From NCBI GenBank assembly GCA_028287235.1, contig JAQBQB010000010.1, positions 372,001 through 436,000 on the forward strand: 64,000 nucleotides of DNA. Reading direction: 5' to 3'. The stretch is from Gemmatimonadota bacterium (GTDB taxonomy: Bacteria > Gemmatimonadota > Gemmatimonadetes > Gemmatimonadales > Gemmatimonadaceae). The notes under the pieces were generated by a model. The model saw only the letters and a program-made list of their open reading frames with translations. It made no database searches and had not been told where the DNA came from. Positions within the stretch are counted from its first letter, which is position 1; each line of letters starts with the position of its first letter. Below, in pieces: positions 26,496 through 32,818 of this stretch. The position numbers were made by a program, and so were the translations under genes.

Positions 26496-27331
26496 GGCGA
26501 ACCACTACCGGCGATCTCCGCGAGCTCAAGACGCGTGGCGTGCCGATCGTCATGGTCACCGCGTACGACTTCAACTCCGCGTCGGTGGCGGAGGCCGCGG
26601 GCGTCGACGTGGTGCTCGTCGGCGACTCGGCCGCGATGACGATGCTGGGCTACGCGTCGACGCGGCTGGTGTCGCTCGACGAGATGCTCATGCTCACGCG
26701 CGCCGTGCGGCGCGGGCTCACGCATCCGCTGCTCGTCGGCGACCTGCCGTTCGGCAGCTACGAGCAGAGCGACGACCAGGCCATGGAGACGGCGGCACGG
26801 TTCGTCGACGCGGGCTGCGACGCGGTCAAGCTCGAGGGGGGGAGCGACGCGATGGTCGACCGCGTTCGCGCGTTGATCGCCGCCGGCATTCCGGTGATGG
26901 GCCACGTGGGGCTCACGCCGCAGAGCACGGGAGAAGGCGAGGGCTTTCACGTGCACGGCCGGACGGCCGACGACGCGCTTCAAATTCTTCGCGAAGCGAC
27001 GGCGCTCGAGGGCGCGGGCTGCTTCGCCGTGGTCTTCGAGGCGATTCCCGCGCCGGTCACGGCGCTGCTGGTGCCACGCCTCGACGTCCCGATCATCGGC
27101 ATCGGCGCCGGCGGGGCGACGGATGGACAGGTGCTCGTGTTCGACGATCTCGTCGGACTGTTTGCCGGCCGCGCGCCCAAGTTCGTGAAGCGATTCGCCG
27201 AGGTGCGTGCCGAGATGCTGTCGGCGGTCGAGCGGTACGCCGGCGAAGTGCGCACGGGGAGCTTTCCCGACGTCGCGCATGGGTATGGGTTGGATGCAGC
27301 GGAGCTGGACCGGTTGCGAACGCTGCTGTGA
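26492..27331 (+). CDS. panB: 3-methyl-2-oxobutanoate hydroxymethyltransferase
   Basis: A 279-residue TIM-barrel enzyme making ketopantoate from alpha-ketoisovalerate and methylenetetrahydrofolate. Visible family features: IVMVTAYDFNSASVAEAAGVDVVLVGDS, LPFGSYEQS, DAVKLEGG, GHVGLTPQS, VFEAIPAPV and the C-terminal DLVGLFAGRAPKFVKRF. ATG overlaps panC by four bases. Last gene of the three-gene pantothenate operon; a dispersed inverted repeat 15 bases downstream can act as terminator. Confidence 0.97.
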   Translation: MRRTTTGDLRELKTRGVPIVMVTAYDFNSASVAEAAGVDVVLVGDSAAMTMLGYASTRLVSLDEMLMLTRAVRRGLTHPLLVGDLPFGSYEQSDDQAMETAARFVDAGCDAVKLEGGSDAMVDRVRALIAAGIPVMGHVGLTPQSTGEGEGFHVHGRTADDALQILREATALEGAGCFAVVFEAIPAPVTALLVPRLDVPIIGIGAGGATDGQVLVFDDLVGLFAGRAPKFVKRFAEVRAEMLSAVERYAGEVRTGSFPDVAHGYGLDAAELDRLRTLL

Positions 27332-27345
27332 GCCTGAGCCGCTCT

Positions 27346-27419
27346 TGTCATCCTGAGCGAAGCGAAGGATCTCTCCGCCCGGAAAGAGATCCTTCGTCGC
27401 TGCGCTCCTCAGGATGACA
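27346..27419. repeat. Dispersed TGTCATCCTGAG inverted repeat
   Basis: The terminal arms TGTCATCCTGAG and CTCAGGATGACA are perfect complements, with inner complementary GAAGGATCTCT and AGAGATCCTTC. This is the well-known intergenic repeat that reads 'cctgagcgaagcgaaggatct' in many bacterial genomes. It folds into a long hairpin downstream of panB and may end transcription. Confidence 0.85.
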
Positions 27420-27503
27420 GTAGGAGACAGCAGGAAACAGCGGGCTGACCGGTGATTGCGCCGCGCCCTCGCGGATTGTCTCGTCGGGCGTAGGTTCTCC
27501 CGA

Positions 27504-29378
27504 ATGCGCCTTCAACTATCCGTTCTCGCCTCGCTGGGTCTCGCGGTCTCAGTTTCCGCGCAGCAGCCGCAGTTCACCGTGCAGGAAGTGATGATCCCCG
27601 TCCGCGACGGCGTTCACCTGCAGACCGCGATCCTCACCCCCGTCAACCAAACGGGTCCGCTGCCGATTCTCTTTCGACGCACGCCGTACGGCGTACCGGA
27701 CAAAGCGCCGAATCCAGTCCCCGCGAGTCTCAAGGAGCTCGCGAAGGACGGATACATCTTCGTCATTCAGAATTTGCGCGGGCGATTCAAGTCGGAAGGC
27801 ACGTTCCTCCTGTCGTCGCAGGTGAATCTTGCCGACCCCAAGTCGACCAACGAGACGACGGATGCGTACGACAGCATCGACTGGCTCGTGAAGCACGTGC
27901 CGAACAACAACGGAAAGGTCGGGCTGTACGGCGTGTCGTACGACGGGTTGACCGCGGCGCTCGCGCTGCTGCATCCGCATCCCGCCCTCAAGGCGATCAG
28001 CGAGCAGGCGTCGCCGGTCGATCAATGGATGAACGACGACGACCATCGCTACGGCGCGCTGCGCGAGAGCTACGCGTTCGAATACGCGGTGTACGAGCAG
28101 GCGGACAAGAACAAGAACACGAACTTCAACTTCGAGACGTACGACACGTACTCGTGGTATCTCGCGCTCGGACCGCTGTCGAACATCAACGCGAAGTATC
28201 TCCACGGGTCGATTCCCTACTGGAACGACGTCGTGGCCCATCCGAACTACGACTCCTTTCATAAGAAGGAAGCGTGGATCAATCAACTCCACGCCTCGAC
28301 GGTGCCCAACCTCAACGTCGCGGGCTTCTGGGACCAGGAAGATCCGTGGGGCCCGTGGCAGATCTTCCGCCACGCGGCCGAGCACGATCCCGACAACACC
28401 AATTTCATGGTCGCGGGGCCGTGGTATCACGGCGGGTGGCACGGGCCGAAGGGCGACAGCATCGGCGCGATCGCGCTCGGTGGCCACGAGACGGCGCGCG
28501 AATTCCGCGAGACGCTCGAGGCGCCCTTTTTCAACTACTATCTGCACGGCGTCGGACAGAAACCCACGTGGAAGGCGACGACGTTTCAGTCGGGATCGAA
28601 CCGCTGGCGCACCTACGCCGCGTGGCCGCCGGTGGGGGCGAAGGCGACCAATCTCTATCTCCACACCGACGGAACGCTGTCGTTCGCTCCGCCCGCCGCT
28701 GCATCGGGCGCGAGCGCGTATCGGGAGTATGTGTCCGACCCGGCGAGCCCGGTGCCGTACCGGCAGCGCCCGATCTCGCCGACCTATCCCGAAGGAGATT
28801 GGCGCAGATGGGAAGTCGCCGACCAGCGCTTCGTCGACGGACGTCCCGACGTGCTCACCTTCACGAGCGCGCCGCTCGATCACGATCTCACGATCACCGG
28901 TGAGCTCGCGGCGGACCTGTTCGCGTCCACGTCGGGCACGGACGCCGACTTCATCGTCAAGCTGATCGACGTCTATCCGGAGAATGCGCAGCCGAACGCC
29001 TGGGACGCCGGCGCCGGTCCGGCGCCGGGACAATACGCGAAGTCGGTGAACGGCTACCAACTGCCGATCGCGATGGAGGTCCGCCGCGGACGATACAACA
29101 CGAGCTACGAGCACCCGAGCGCGCTGACGCCGAACGCGCCCACCGAGTGGAAGGTTCCGCTCCGCGACCACGACCACGTGTTCCTCAAGGGACACCGGCT
29201 CATGGTGCAGGTGCAGTCGACCTGGTTCCCCCTGATCGACCGCAATCCGCAGAAGTTCGTACCGAGCATCTACGCGGCCAAGGCGAGCGACTACGTCAAG
29301 GCGACGCAGCGGGTGTACAGCACGCCGGCCTATCCGTCGCGCATCGTGCTGCCGGTGGTGCCAACGATGCCGGAGTAG
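27504..29378 (+). CDS. CocE/NonD-type secreted hydrolase (X-Pro peptidase/acyl esterase)
   Basis: A 624-residue secreted hydrolase with a signal peptide at residues 1-19 (LAVSVSAQQ). The catalytic domain contains MIPVRDGVHLQTAILTP, the nucleophile elbow GLYGVSYDG and the His loop GPWYHGGWHG; the C-terminal jelly-roll is at about 420-620 (PDVLTFTSAPLDHDLTITGELAADLF). This is the classic GxSYxG form, unlike the other two copies in the window. ATG 27504 is used; the extra 16 codons upstream do not add to the signal sequence. Substrate unknown, periplasmic or extracellular. Confidence 0.9.
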   Translation: MRLQLSVLASLGLAVSVSAQQPQFTVQEVMIPVRDGVHLQTAILTPVNQTGPLPILFRRTPYGVPDKAPNPVPASLKELAKDGYIFVIQNLRGRFKSEGTFLLSSQVNLADPKSTNETTDAYDSIDWLVKHVPNNNGKVGLYGVSYDGLTAALALLHPHPALKAISEQASPVDQWMNDDDHRYGALRESYAFEYAVYEQADKNKNTNFNFETYDTYSWYLALGPLSNINAKYLHGSIPYWNDVVAHPNYDSFHKKEAWINQLHASTVPNLNVAGFWDQEDPWGPWQIFRHAAEHDPDNTNFMVAGPWYHGGWHGPKGDSIGAIALGGHETAREFRETLEAPFFNYYLHGVGQKPTWKATTFQSGSNRWRTYAAWPPVGAKATNLYLHTDGTLSFAPPAAASGASAYREYVSDPASPVPYRQRPISPTYPEGDWRRWEVADQRFVDGRPDVLTFTSAPLDHDLTITGELAADLFASTSGTDADFIVKLIDVYPENAQPNAWDAGAGPAPGQYAKSVNGYQLPIAMEVRRGRYNTSYEHPSALTPNAPTEWKVPLRDHDHVFLKGHRLMVQVQSTWFPLIDRNPQKFVPSIYAAKASDYVKATQRVYSTPAYPSRIVLPVVPTMPE

Positions 29379-29467: not shown

Positions 29468-30238
29468 CTACGCGCGCCGCCGGCGAATCGTCTCCACAGC
29501 CTCGAAGAGCTGATCGAACGAGTCGACGACGAAGAGCACGTCCTGGAAGTGATCGATCTCGAACGGCTGCGCCAGCACGTCGTCGAGCGCAAAAGGACGC
29601 CGGTCGCAGCGGTCGCCGAGCGCGTTGGCCGCGTCGCCGTGCGATGAGATCAAGCCGCTGCCGTAGATCTTTACGCGGCCGGCTTCGCGGATGAGACCAA
29701 ATTCGACGGTGAACCAGAAGAGACGCGCCATCTGTGTCGTCTCGTCCTCGGTCGTCGCGTCAGCGGCAATCGCGCCGAACTGCTGCAGGAAATCCGCGAA
29801 CACCGGATCGGAATGCAGCGGCACGTGGCCGAATACGTCGTGGAAGATGTCCGGCTCGGGGAGGTAGTCGAGCTGTGCGCGCGGGCGAACGGCGAGTGTC
29901 GTGGGAAATCGACGGTTGGCGAGACAGCGGAAGAACTGGCCGGCGGGAATGAACCCTCCCACGCCCACCGCGTTCCAACCGGTGCGCTCGCCGAGACGGC
30001 GGTTGACGTCCGCCAGATCGGGCACGCGATCGGGCTCGAGACCGATGCGCTGAATGCCTTCGAGAAATACCTGGCTACCGGTGTCGTGGAGCGTCGTCAT
30101 GCGCCGCTCGAACAGGATGCGCCACACGTCGTGCGCTTCCGCGTCGTAGTCGGCGTAGCGCTGCTCGACGAATGTCGGAAGGGCAGTAGAGGCAGTCATG
30201 GTGTCCGGCGAGGCGGCGGCATGCTCGTGCTGGTGCAT
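29468..30238 (-). CDS. phhA: Phenylalanine 4-monooxygenase
   Basis: A 256-residue pterin- and iron-dependent hydroxylase turning phenylalanine into tyrosine. The iron ligands are H133 and H138 in DIFHDVFGHVP and E179 in FTVEFGL; the 41-residue gap between the second His and the Glu equals that in known bacterial enzymes. The bacterial enzyme lacks the ACT regulatory domain, as here. ATG at 30238 follows GAGGATCCT; a longer reading would run through the terminator hairpin and is rejected. The gene is preceded by a Tyr-rich leader ORF and an intrinsic terminator (see 30255-30407), so it is probably controlled by transcription attenuation. Confidence 0.96.
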   Translation of the reverse strand: MHQHEHAAASPDTMTASTALPTFVEQRYADYDAEAHDVWRILFERRMTTLHDTGSQVFLEGIQRIGLEPDRVPDLADVNRRLGERTGWNAVGVGGFIPAGQFFRCLANRRFPTTLAVRPRAQLDYLPEPDIFHDVFGHVPLHSDPVFADFLQQFGAIAADATTEDETTQMARLFWFTVEFGLIREAGRVKIYGSGLISSHGDAANALGDRCDRRPFALDDVLAQPFEIDHFQDVLFVVDSFDQLFEAVETIRRRRA

Positions 30239-30254
30239 AGGATCCTCATGGGCG

Positions 30255-30291
30255 AAAAAAAAGCGGCCCGTGGACATTGTCCACGGGCCGC
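30255..30291 (-). terminator. Intrinsic terminator (attenuator) before phhA
   Basis: On the minus strand GCGGCCCGTGGAC (30291-30279), a three-base loop and GTCCACGGGCCGC (30275-30263) form a perfect 13-bp hairpin directly followed by eight Ts (30262-30255). It lies after the leader-peptide stop and 16 bases before the phhA start, so it would stop transcription before phhA unless an alternative structure forms. Confidence 0.93.
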
Positions 30292-30314
30292 AGGGAAAAC
30301 GAAGGCTGGGTCGA

Positions 30315-30407
30315 CTAGACGCGCAAACGCTCGCTCCTACGTCCCGGGGACCGGGTGGCGTAGTAATAGCGATACGAATAGTTGGCGCGCGCGGACAAGC
30401 TCGACAT
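30315..30407 (-). CDS. Tyrosine-rich leader peptide of phhA (30 aa)
   Basis: An open frame ATG to TAG of 30 codons between the promoter and the attenuator. Residues 10-16 read YSYRYYY: five Tyr codons in seven, far above chance, since Tyr is rare in this GC-rich genome. Downstream codons 18-23 encode the segment GTCCCCGGGAC (30351-30341), which matches 9 of 11 bases of the terminator 3' arm GTCCACGGGCC and could pair with the 5' arm as antiterminator. The ATG lies about seven bases after the -10 box with no Shine-Dalgarno, so the mRNA may be leaderless. Model: shortage of Tyr-tRNA stalls ribosomes here and lets phhA be transcribed. Not tested. Confidence 0.82.
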   Translation of the reverse strand: MSSLSARANYSYRYYYATRSPGRRSERLRV

Positions 30408-30414
30408 GATACTG

Positions 30415-30443
30415 ACGTTAATGGTGCGGGGCGAAGCCGTCAA
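30415..30443 (-). promoter_or_regulatory. Promoter of the phhA leader
   Basis: Minus strand: TTGACG (30443-30438), a 17-base spacer, then TAACGT (30420-30415). It sits right after the stop codon of the upstream DUF5916 gene and would start transcription at about the leader ATG at 30407. Confidence 0.6.
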
Positions 30444-30448
30444 CCCGC

Positions 30449-32818
30449 TCACATCCGGAACAGATAGCTGAACTTCGCGAAGAAGTAGTCCGACGCCCGA
30501 ATGAGCGGCTGGTAGTTGAAGCGGTCACGCGGATCCGGATTGGCGTTCGCCAAGCTGCCGTAGCCGAGGAACACGACGGTGCCGGGCACCGGCTGATAGG
30601 AGAAGAGCCAGTCGCCGTGCAGCTGCGCGGTGCGCGTGGCCAGCGCCTTCTTGCCGTTGACGATGAGCGGGAAGAACGTCCGCGTCTCGTCGCGTAGATC
30701 GCCCTGCTCCGAAAGATCGTATTCGCCCACGGCGCGGAAGAAGATCGAGCGGGTGAGCTGGTACTCGACCTTGAGGCGCGGAATGACGTTCTTTCCGGCG
30801 AGCGTGTGATCGGAGCGGCGCCGGTAGTCCTGATACGCAAGCGTGCCCGTGGCGCGCACCCGGTCATTCGGCCGGAAGTTCGTCGTCATGGACAGGTAGT
30901 GGATGTCCGCCTGCGCCCACTCGAAGAAATTCTCGTCCTGGCCGCCGATGTACGTCGCCGACGCGCTGAAGCGCGACCACTGCGGCGTCGTCACCGTGGC
31001 GACGTAGTCGCGGTTCGGGATGCGGCCCACGCCGGTGAACGGAACGGTGTCCACGGTCGAGCCGATCGTGCGCTCGATCTTGTAGTTGGCGTAGAGCGTC
31101 TTGTCCCAGCCGAACGACTCCCAGTACACGGCGCCGAGCACGGCCCAGCCACCGCGCAGCGCCGCGCTCGTGGTCAGGTGAAACTTCTTGTCCTGTGCGT
31201 CGCCATGGCCGAAGTGCGAGTACTCCCAGATGTCGTCGTACGACACGGATTCCGTCACCGACTCGACGGCGCTGCCGCGCGCGTTGAACCACGTGAAGCG
31301 ATTGTCCATCAGCCCGTGGACGATCGCGCCGCGCGCAATGAAACCCGACGGCGCGCGGAAATTGTCGTCGATGCCGGTGAGCAGGTAGCGAAAGCCGAAC
31401 TTCTTTCCGTTGCGCGAAAGAATGTTCTCCCAGAGCGGCGCATCGGCCACCGAGCCGCGCGTCTTGTCGTAGCTTCGCGCGTACTGGAACTGCTCGGTGT
31501 AGATCTTTCCGAACACCATGCGTCCGTCGACGTCGATGACGCGATTGTAGTCCGCGCCGACGACCCGATCGGTGTATGCCATGCCGATGCGCGACTCGCT
31601 GCCGATGTCGCGTTGCGCGCGCACGATGTTGTAGCGGATCGCGTCGCGGCCGGACGGTGACAGCGACTGATCGTCGCTCGCCGACAGCAGCCCGAGCGCG
31701 GTGCCGGCGGCCTTGCCGGTGAGCTTGAGCGCCGCGTCGGGCAGCGCGATGCGCCGCGTGTAGATGAGTCCATTCGGCACGCTGAACTGCTCGAGCCCAT
31801 CGAGAAAGAACGGACGCTTCTCGGCGAAGCGCACCGCACGCCGCGGATCCAGCACGATCTGCCCGGCGTCCGACTCCACCTCGGCGAAGTCGGGGCGCGC
31901 GGTGCCGGTGACCGTGAGGTTGTTCGTCACCCCCCAACGCGCGGTGCCGCCGAACTGCGGCGCGGGGTGCGTGTACGCCCAGCCGAGCGGCGTTGGCGCG
32001 CCGGTCGCCTTGCGAGTGGCGACAGGATTGAGGTCGAGCACGAGGCCGCGATCGAAGCCCGTGAGATCAGCGAGTGAGCCGGACTGGCCGAGGAACGACG
32101 CGCCAGACCGTTTCGCCGGAACCCAACTGTCCTCATAGCCCGAGTGCTGCACCTCGCGCAGGATGTTGATGTCCCACGACTGCACGTCGGTCGACTGATA
32201 CTTGAGGCTCTTGAAGGGAATGCGAACCTCGACCTCGTAGCCGTAGTCGGTGAGGCGTCCCTTGGATGTATAGACGAAATCCTGATTGAGGTCGGCCGCC
32301 GGCCGGCCCGCCGACGTGGGCGCGAAGCCGCCGCCGCTCGAGACGCGACCGCTCTCGACGATCGTGCCGTCCATCTGAATGCCGAATGGATTCACCGCGA
32401 AGACGTACGCCTGCCGACGATCGTGGAAGGTGCCGAGCAGAATCTGGACGTTGTCGTCGGAGGCGATCTTGTCGCGGTCGGCGAGCGTGGCGTGGACCGC
32501 TCCACTCGTGGCGAACGCGCGGATGCCGACGTACAGCGCCGTGGGCGAATACCAGATCAGGATCTGGGTCGTATCCGCGGCGGGAATTCCGTCGAGCGGA
32601 GAGAACTGCGAGAAGCCCGTGAGCACCGCGGCCTGCTGCCAGACGGGATCATCGAGCACTCCGTCGATGGCCGGCCGCGCGAGCTCGCCTTCGATCCGCG
32701 GGATGTGAACCTGAAGTTGGTTCAGCCGCCCGATGTAGGTGCCGGCGGGAGCGGGCGTTGGGGTTCGATCGCGCGGACAAAGCGCCGTCAGTGCTGCGAG
32801 CGCCAGGCAGGAAAGCAT
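30449..32818 (-). CDS. DUF5916 protein: CBM9-like domain plus outer-membrane barrel
   Basis: A 789-residue exported protein. After a short hydrophobic N-terminus comes a carbohydrate-binding family 9-like domain (about residues 45-245: IDGVLDDPVWQQAAVLTGFSQFSP, LYVGIRAFATSG, GYEVEVRIPFKSLKY), then DUF5916, whose alternating strands end in FAKFSYLFRM with a C-terminal aromatic residue pattern of outer-membrane barrels. The conserved RFAEKRPFFLDGLEQFSVPN is characteristic. Probable role: surface binding or uptake of polymers; no substrate is evident. ATG 32818 has weak ribosome binding. The phhA leader promoter begins just after its stop. Confidence 0.86.
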   Translation of the reverse strand: MLSCLALAALTALCPRDRTPTPAPAGTYIGRLNQLQVHIPRIEGELARPAIDGVLDDPVWQQAAVLTGFSQFSPLDGIPAADTTQILIWYSPTALYVGIRAFATSGAVHATLADRDKIASDDNVQILLGTFHDRRQAYVFAVNPFGIQMDGTIVESGRVSSGGGFAPTSAGRPAADLNQDFVYTSKGRLTDYGYEVEVRIPFKSLKYQSTDVQSWDINILREVQHSGYEDSWVPAKRSGASFLGQSGSLADLTGFDRGLVLDLNPVATRKATGAPTPLGWAYTHPAPQFGGTARWGVTNNLTVTGTARPDFAEVESDAGQIVLDPRRAVRFAEKRPFFLDGLEQFSVPNGLIYTRRIALPDAALKLTGKAAGTALGLLSASDDQSLSPSGRDAIRYNIVRAQRDIGSESRIGMAYTDRVVGADYNRVIDVDGRMVFGKIYTEQFQYARSYDKTRGSVADAPLWENILSRNGKKFGFRYLLTGIDDNFRAPSGFIARGAIVHGLMDNRFTWFNARGSAVESVTESVSYDDIWEYSHFGHGDAQDKKFHLTTSAALRGGWAVLGAVYWESFGWDKTLYANYKIERTIGSTVDTVPFTGVGRIPNRDYVATVTTPQWSRFSASATYIGGQDENFFEWAQADIHYLSMTTNFRPNDRVRATGTLAYQDYRRRSDHTLAGKNVIPRLKVEYQLTRSIFFRAVGEYDLSEQGDLRDETRTFFPLIVNGKKALATRTAQLHGDWLFSYQPVPGTVVFLGYGSLANANPDPRDRFNYQPLIRASDYFFAKFSYLFRM

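Follow-up and report, generated by a model that had tools for sequence, protein, structure and literature searches.

Ribosome-mediated attenuators are typified by trpL, hisL and pheL of Proteobacteria, where codons for the end product, the alternative pairings 1:2, 2:3 and 3:4, and an intrinsic terminator precede the structural gene. The trpL attenuator of Sinorhizobium meliloti is leaderless, and has Trp codons before a trp gene. Leader-peptide systems were known only in Proteobacteria and Actinobacteria until a survey from 2010 added the Firmicutes (PMC2965389). For aromatic amino acids, the AroR leader before aroF in Corynebacterium glutamicum is described as carrying Phe-Tyr-Phe and responding to Phe rather than to Tyr (Neshat et al. 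2014, reviewed in PMC11802643), and Phe codons are found in the uORFC-13-1 motif that precedes aroF in Acholeplasma (PMC8632094). A survey of Actinobacteria lists attenuators for other amino acids, with tyrosine genes regulated by T-boxes elsewhere (PMC1262725), and a database-derived listing includes putative attenuators before tyrA operons, the listing itself giving no codon evidence (PMC1173090). The S. meliloti trp leader peptide, peTrpL, is described as acting in trans (PMC7298713). Our literature search, which most subscription papers fell outside, retrieved no description of a Tyr-codon leader, of attenuation of phhA, or of leader-peptide regulation in Gemmatimonadota. The first-pass annotation of this locus had likewise known of no ribosome-mediated attenuation of phhA.

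Here we describe a leader upstream of phhA for which transcription attenuation by the ribosome, in response to charged Tyr-tRNA, is the best explanation and a highly probable one. Within the window (the whole 64,000-nt stretch of DNA analysed), the gene and its leader lie on the minus strand, with the upstream parts running from 30443 to 30238; all coordinates below refer to this strand unless stated. A promoter that looks sigma-70-like in sequence precedes the leader ATG, with a -35 box TTGACG (30438-30443; TTGAC[A/G] stands at the equivalent place in most of the 74 leaders discussed below), a 17-nt spacer, and a -10 box TAACGT (30415-30420) that ends 7 nt upstream of the ATG. A phhA regulated by PhhR/TyrR would by comparison be marked by a sigma-54 promoter and a neighbouring PhhR gene. 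The leader ORF (30315-30407; ATG at 30407, stop codon TAG at 30317-30315) comprises 30 codons, encodes the peptide MSSLSARANYSYRYYYATRSPGRRSERLRV, and is conserved in 35 phhA leaders. Its control region YSYRYYY (30360-30380) contains five Tyr codons, at residues 10, 12, 14, 15 and 16.

Downstream of the control codons, the predicted RNA segments overlap in a way that permits alternative folding. Segment 1 (30351-30363), the 5' arm of a protector hairpin defined by folding and by 1:2 covariation, overlaps the last Tyr codon, and the whole protector (30363-30337) folds with -13.1 kcal/mol (z -2.6). The core of segment 2 (30337-30351; GTCCCCGGGACGTAG), assigned from its pairings and their covariation, is a copy of the terminator 3' arm and has two alternative partners, segment 1 or the terminator 5' arm; within it, GTCCCCGGGAC at 30351-30341 matches nine of the first eleven bases of the terminator 3' arm GTCCACGGGCC. 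The antiterminator 2:3 (30279-30351) is an imperfect hairpin of -33.0 kcal/mol (z -2.2) with the leader stop codon in its apical loop. The terminator hairpin 3:4 (30263-30291) has 13 perfect pairs around the loop AAT (-28.3 kcal/mol, z -7.3), and leads into a tract of eight Ts (30255-30262), the Shine-Dalgarno sequence GAGGA (30243-30247), and phhA itself (29468-30238). The encoded protein of 256 aa is recognised as phenylalanine 4-monooxygenase in profile searches (NF008877, E 2e-91; Biopterin_H, PF00351, E 2e-48). The first-pass annotation had reported the ORF with its Tyr codons, the perfect 13-bp hairpin with eight Ts and the ribosome binding site after it, and the copied segment; we recover the ORF base for base, the hairpin and its surroundings as described, and the copy in the same place with the same count. 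It made no mention of the nearness of the promoter to the ATG, of the protector hairpin, of the longer antiterminator, or of the occurrence of the scaffold on other genes.

Two side observations concern the annotation of the window. The phhA frame stays open into the terminator, where a further ATG stands at 30277, and a gene annotated from that codon would bury the terminator in its coding sequence. At 27328-27515, short overlapping ORFs on both strands (CHPERSEGSL and CHPEERSDEGSL) bear the marks of a REP-like palindromic repeat and not of genes.

To place the leader in a wider setting, relatives of phhA were taken from genome contigs plus 298 genomes of the phylum Gemmatimonadota, with near-duplicates between the two collections mostly counted once. 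We count 35 phhA leaders of the same design, found in Gemmatimonadota and in a few MAGs labelled Acidobacteriales. They share the order promoter, Tyr-codon ORF, copied arm, terminator, phhA, and the peptide core Y..YYY..TGR..RR.R; every one of the 35 has at least two Tyr codons, with a mean of 3.6. The first-pass annotation had held that orthologous leaders lacking Tyr enrichment and a terminator would speak against its reading, and we see instead that all 35 keep the Tyr codons, the terminator and the alternative pairing. Some close relatives of phhA set in other gene contexts have no leader (L003, L004, L010, L086 and L091), and neither do most phhA genes of a group at about 50% protein identity, which possibly has a different role. 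On the phhA tree, where deep branches are weak, the presence of the leader is strongly clustered (6 changes, versus 24 in shuffles).

Among the MAGs labelled Acidobacteriales, L015, L016, L018 and L020 carry the phhA leader, and a genome search of the four found no other strong copies of the scaffold. Either leader and phhA were transferred horizontally together, or the bins are mislabelled. As the tree is weakly supported, it neither dates the leader nor decides between transfer and mislabelling.

A long same-strand gene ends at 30449, and terminators come after genes, so that the hairpin before phhA could be the ordinary intrinsic terminator of this upstream gene and the short ORF in front of it meaningless. 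We regard this as extremely improbable: the upstream gene is separated from the terminator by a promoter-like site and by a Tyr-rich ORF that is conserved, the 35 orthologous leaders retain ORF, spacing and pairing behind varied upstream genes, and, as described below, the codons of the leader track the downstream gene.

Covariation was scored on the 35-row alignment of phhA leaders against 500 shuffles. These shuffles ignore relatedness, so the figures are not to be read as probabilities, but for each helix none of the 500 reached the observed score: the terminator 3:4 has 92.4% of cells paired and scores 0.330 (0.157 shuffled), the protector 1:2 has 89.9% paired and scores 0.260 (0.137 shuffled), and the antiterminator core 2:3 (A:T1) has 84.7% paired (80.1 shuffled, 31-42 when slid) and scores 0.218 (0.143 shuffled). 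Slid versions of the three helices are 24-48% paired. The helices 1:2, 2:3 and 3:4 are mutually exclusive, and all three covary. In L011, L088 and L095 both partners are replaced together, the copied arm reading CCGGGAGC or CCGGAAGC with the terminator altered to match, and in L011 and L088 a U in T1 restores an A-U pair with the copied arm. When the A:T1 duplex was simply compared with shuffled leaders, significance was not reached in many of the GC-rich leaders, among them that of the window, whose A:T1 pairing alone is no better than in shuffled leaders (p 0.36). For this reason, covariation and folds of the full hairpin were used instead, and it is because the 35 phhA leaders share one design and their pairings covary that the A:T1 pairing can be placed beyond chance.

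Folding was performed for 74 leaders (35 of phhA and 39 others), from the copied arm through the end of T1. A single long imperfect antiterminator hairpin is predicted in 72 of the 74, with a mean z of -2.9, and the leader stop codon usually falls at or near its tip. The copied segment had previously been proposed as an antiterminator; this role is borne out by the covariation of 2:3, although the hairpin is longer than had been noticed and usually carries the stop codon at its tip. The antiterminator has a modelled mean energy of -34.7, or of -16.0 once a ribosome footprint is placed over the stop codon, and the terminator one of -23.7. The protector hairpin 1:2 appears in local folds of 71/74 leaders. 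At equilibrium the finished leader RNA favours the terminator in 73/74, so antitermination would have to be kinetic, as in known attenuators. Counted from the first base of the final control codon, segment 2 starts at a median of 13 nt. A ribosome with this codon in its A site would have its front edge at about that distance, so a stalled ribosome would cover segment 1 and leave segment 2 free.

We infer that the leader is translated, that events follow the order given here, and that the system responds to tyrosine. When Tyr-tRNA is short, the ribosome would stall on the Tyr codons and cover segment 1, allowing segment 2 to pair with segment 3 (the terminator 5' arm) and preventing the terminator, and RNA polymerase would then proceed into phhA, leading to tyrosine being made. 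When Tyr-tRNA is ample, the ribosome would reach the stop codon at the tip of the antiterminator, where its footprint is predicted to break that hairpin, such that segment 3 could pair with segment 4 and transcription would end. The core of segment 2 lies just outside the reach of a ribosome on the stop codon, whose effect was modelled as breaking the hairpin tip. With no ribosome present, segment 2 would be held in hairpin 1:2, and termination would be expected. The features by which an attenuator is recognised occur together at this locus, namely end-product codons, an intrinsic terminator, a covarying antiterminator, a protector hairpin, and codons that match the pathway. No T-box was found among Rfam matches to the leader region up to E 10, and the best matches to any Rfam family there were far under the gathering scores.

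The -10 box ends 6-7 nt upstream of the ATG in 47 of the 74 leaders, and a Shine-Dalgarno-like 4-mer is present in just five. Together these suggest that the leader mRNA probably starts at or beside the start codon, and is probably leaderless in the sense of lacking an untranslated 5' region. This start and the stable terminator resemble the S. meliloti trp leader system, and the terminated leader RNA or its peptide could act in trans in addition to attenuation in cis. We consider such an added function unlikely; were it to exist, it would supplement attenuation by charged Tyr-tRNA and not replace it.

The strongest evidence comes from other genes. A covariance model built from the phhA leaders was run over the 298 genomes and matched 180 of them. 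A further 40 matches were fetched and read, and these precede DAHP synthase (31), pheA (6, one of which, L187, lies on a cut contig and was recognised from the first residues of pheA), hisG (2) and aspartate kinase (1), counts that, with a model built from Tyr leaders, do not represent true frequencies. We see that the leaders of phhA have on average 3.6 Tyr and 0.3 Phe codons and those of DAHP synthase 3.9 Tyr and 1.4 Phe, while pheA leaders have 4.0 Phe and 0.4 Tyr, hisG leaders have 6.5 His, and the single ask leader has 11 Thr. The last of these is the leader MSMHALRAGTTYTTTTTRVTTTTGRRRSRVR upstream of aspartate kinase in L201 (G283:C408). The bias that comes from training on Tyr leaders cannot account for Phe, His and Thr codons standing in front of the genes that match them. 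The control codons therefore change with the downstream pathway, which serves as an internal control. This exchange, together with the 35 conserved leaders, supports the earlier reading of the locus as a candidate Tyr-codon attenuator.

The conserved Arg-rich tail of the leaders (TGR..RR.R) could itself pause ribosomes, and the attenuator might then mainly sense translation rate or general starvation, with the Tyr codons of minor weight. The same tail is common to the His, Phe and Thr leaders, however, and it is the control codons that vary by pathway, which makes this very improbable compared with specific sensing of Tyr-tRNA.

The source genome itself contains the scaffold on two further genes. 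A Tyr leader MSCATAYRYYYYYATPNTGRWSRTR (L162, G000:C23:181170-181317, minus strand) precedes a cluster of DAHP synthase (aroF), chorismate mutase and tyrA, and a His leader MQPINRTHHTHRHHHGPSGPGEVRVHA on the scaffold of the phhA leader (L163, G000:C1:20035-20195, minus strand) precedes hisG. Other matches of the covariance model in this genome, besides those at phhA, aroF and hisG, appeared to be chance or bare terminators and were set aside. A possible history, to which we give even chances, is that one ancestral leaderless scaffold was copied before several amino-acid genes with its codons swapped, that the Tyr version came to sit on aroF-tyrA and phhA, and that in many lineages phhA replaced tyrA, with the result that tyrosine synthesis needs oxygen.

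Whether phhA makes tyrosine for synthesis or for breakdown was assessed from the accompanying genes. Strong tyrA matches (PF02153, E < 1e-12) occur in 6/27 genomes with leader-phhA versus 130/205 genomes without phhA (Fisher p 1e-4, uncorrected for kinship). As PF02153 could miss a divergent tyrA, the search was repeated with the TyrA of the source genome, and with both probes no clear tyrA was found in 18 of the 27, in which a more divergent TyrA enzyme is possible. In leader-phhA genomes without clear tyrA, no recognised route to tyrosine would exist besides phhA; the source genome has both genes. The frequent lack of tyrA supports a tyrosine-making role.

On the catabolic side, 22 of the 31 genomes searched have an hpd scoring above the family cut-off; in the source genome (L233, G000:C4:71000-73518, minus strand) this gene is followed by a divergent homogentisate dioxygenase gene (hgd). 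A genome search with PF04209 found this enzyme in 1 of 76 genomes and missed the divergent gene, whose match to TIGR01015 reaches just E 8e-12. Absence of hgd was at one stage taken as an argument against catabolism, and was dropped when the DNA beside hpd was found to hold an hgd that PF04209 misses. Tyrosine catabolism is thus possible in the source genome, and the leader might serve it, with phhA feeding tyrosine into breakdown by hpd and hgd and the leader doing no more than limit this flow when tyrosine is ample. We consider this improbable, because one would expect a catabolic gene to respond to its substrate with induction, whereas the logic of the leader would switch phhA on in tyrosine shortage; moreover, tyrA is frequently missing, and the aroF-chorismate mutase-tyrA cluster bears the same Tyr leader. 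The direction of control points to synthesis, and the role of phhA is inferred to be mainly biosynthetic. The first-pass annotation had proposed a tyrosine-forming rather than catabolic role, of which the first half agrees with the scarcity of tyrA, and the exclusion of catabolism does not survive the finding of hpd and hgd.

If correct, these interpretations would mean that a Tyr-specific ribosome-mediated attenuator controls a gene usually treated as catabolic. They also predict that Gemmatimonadota without tyrA make tyrosine from phenylalanine with a requirement for oxygen; Chloracidobacterium provides a published precedent for such oxygen-dependent synthesis (PMC4376005). The shared scaffold with its swapped codons would offer a set of natural variants in which the origin of attenuators and their changes of specificity can be studied.

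Compared with known systems, the phhA leader has the general plan of trpL, hisL and pheL, and differs from them in its Tyr codons, its target phhA, its phylum, its probably leaderless start, the position of its stop codon at the antiterminator tip, and the service of one scaffold to several pathways. AroR resembles the leaders described here as an aromatic-codon leader before DAHP synthase that works by ribosome stalling, but it is reported to respond to Phe rather than to Tyr, does not involve phhA and belongs to another phylum. The uORFC-13-1 motif similarly places a uORF, promoter elements and a terminator upstream of a DAHP synthase gene, but has a ribosome binding site and Phe codons, occurs in another phylum, and is found on aroF only. 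With S. meliloti trpL the phhA leader shares an ORF that begins at or beside the transcription start, although the codons there are for Trp and the gene is a trp gene. The T-boxes of tyrosine genes (PMC1262725) also sense aminoacylation of tRNA-Tyr and control termination, but they bind uncharged tRNA directly and have no translated leader. In short, the mechanism proposed for phhA is known in kind, and what is new is its specificity for Tyr, the gene it targets, the phylum, the probably leaderless start and the sharing of one scaffold.
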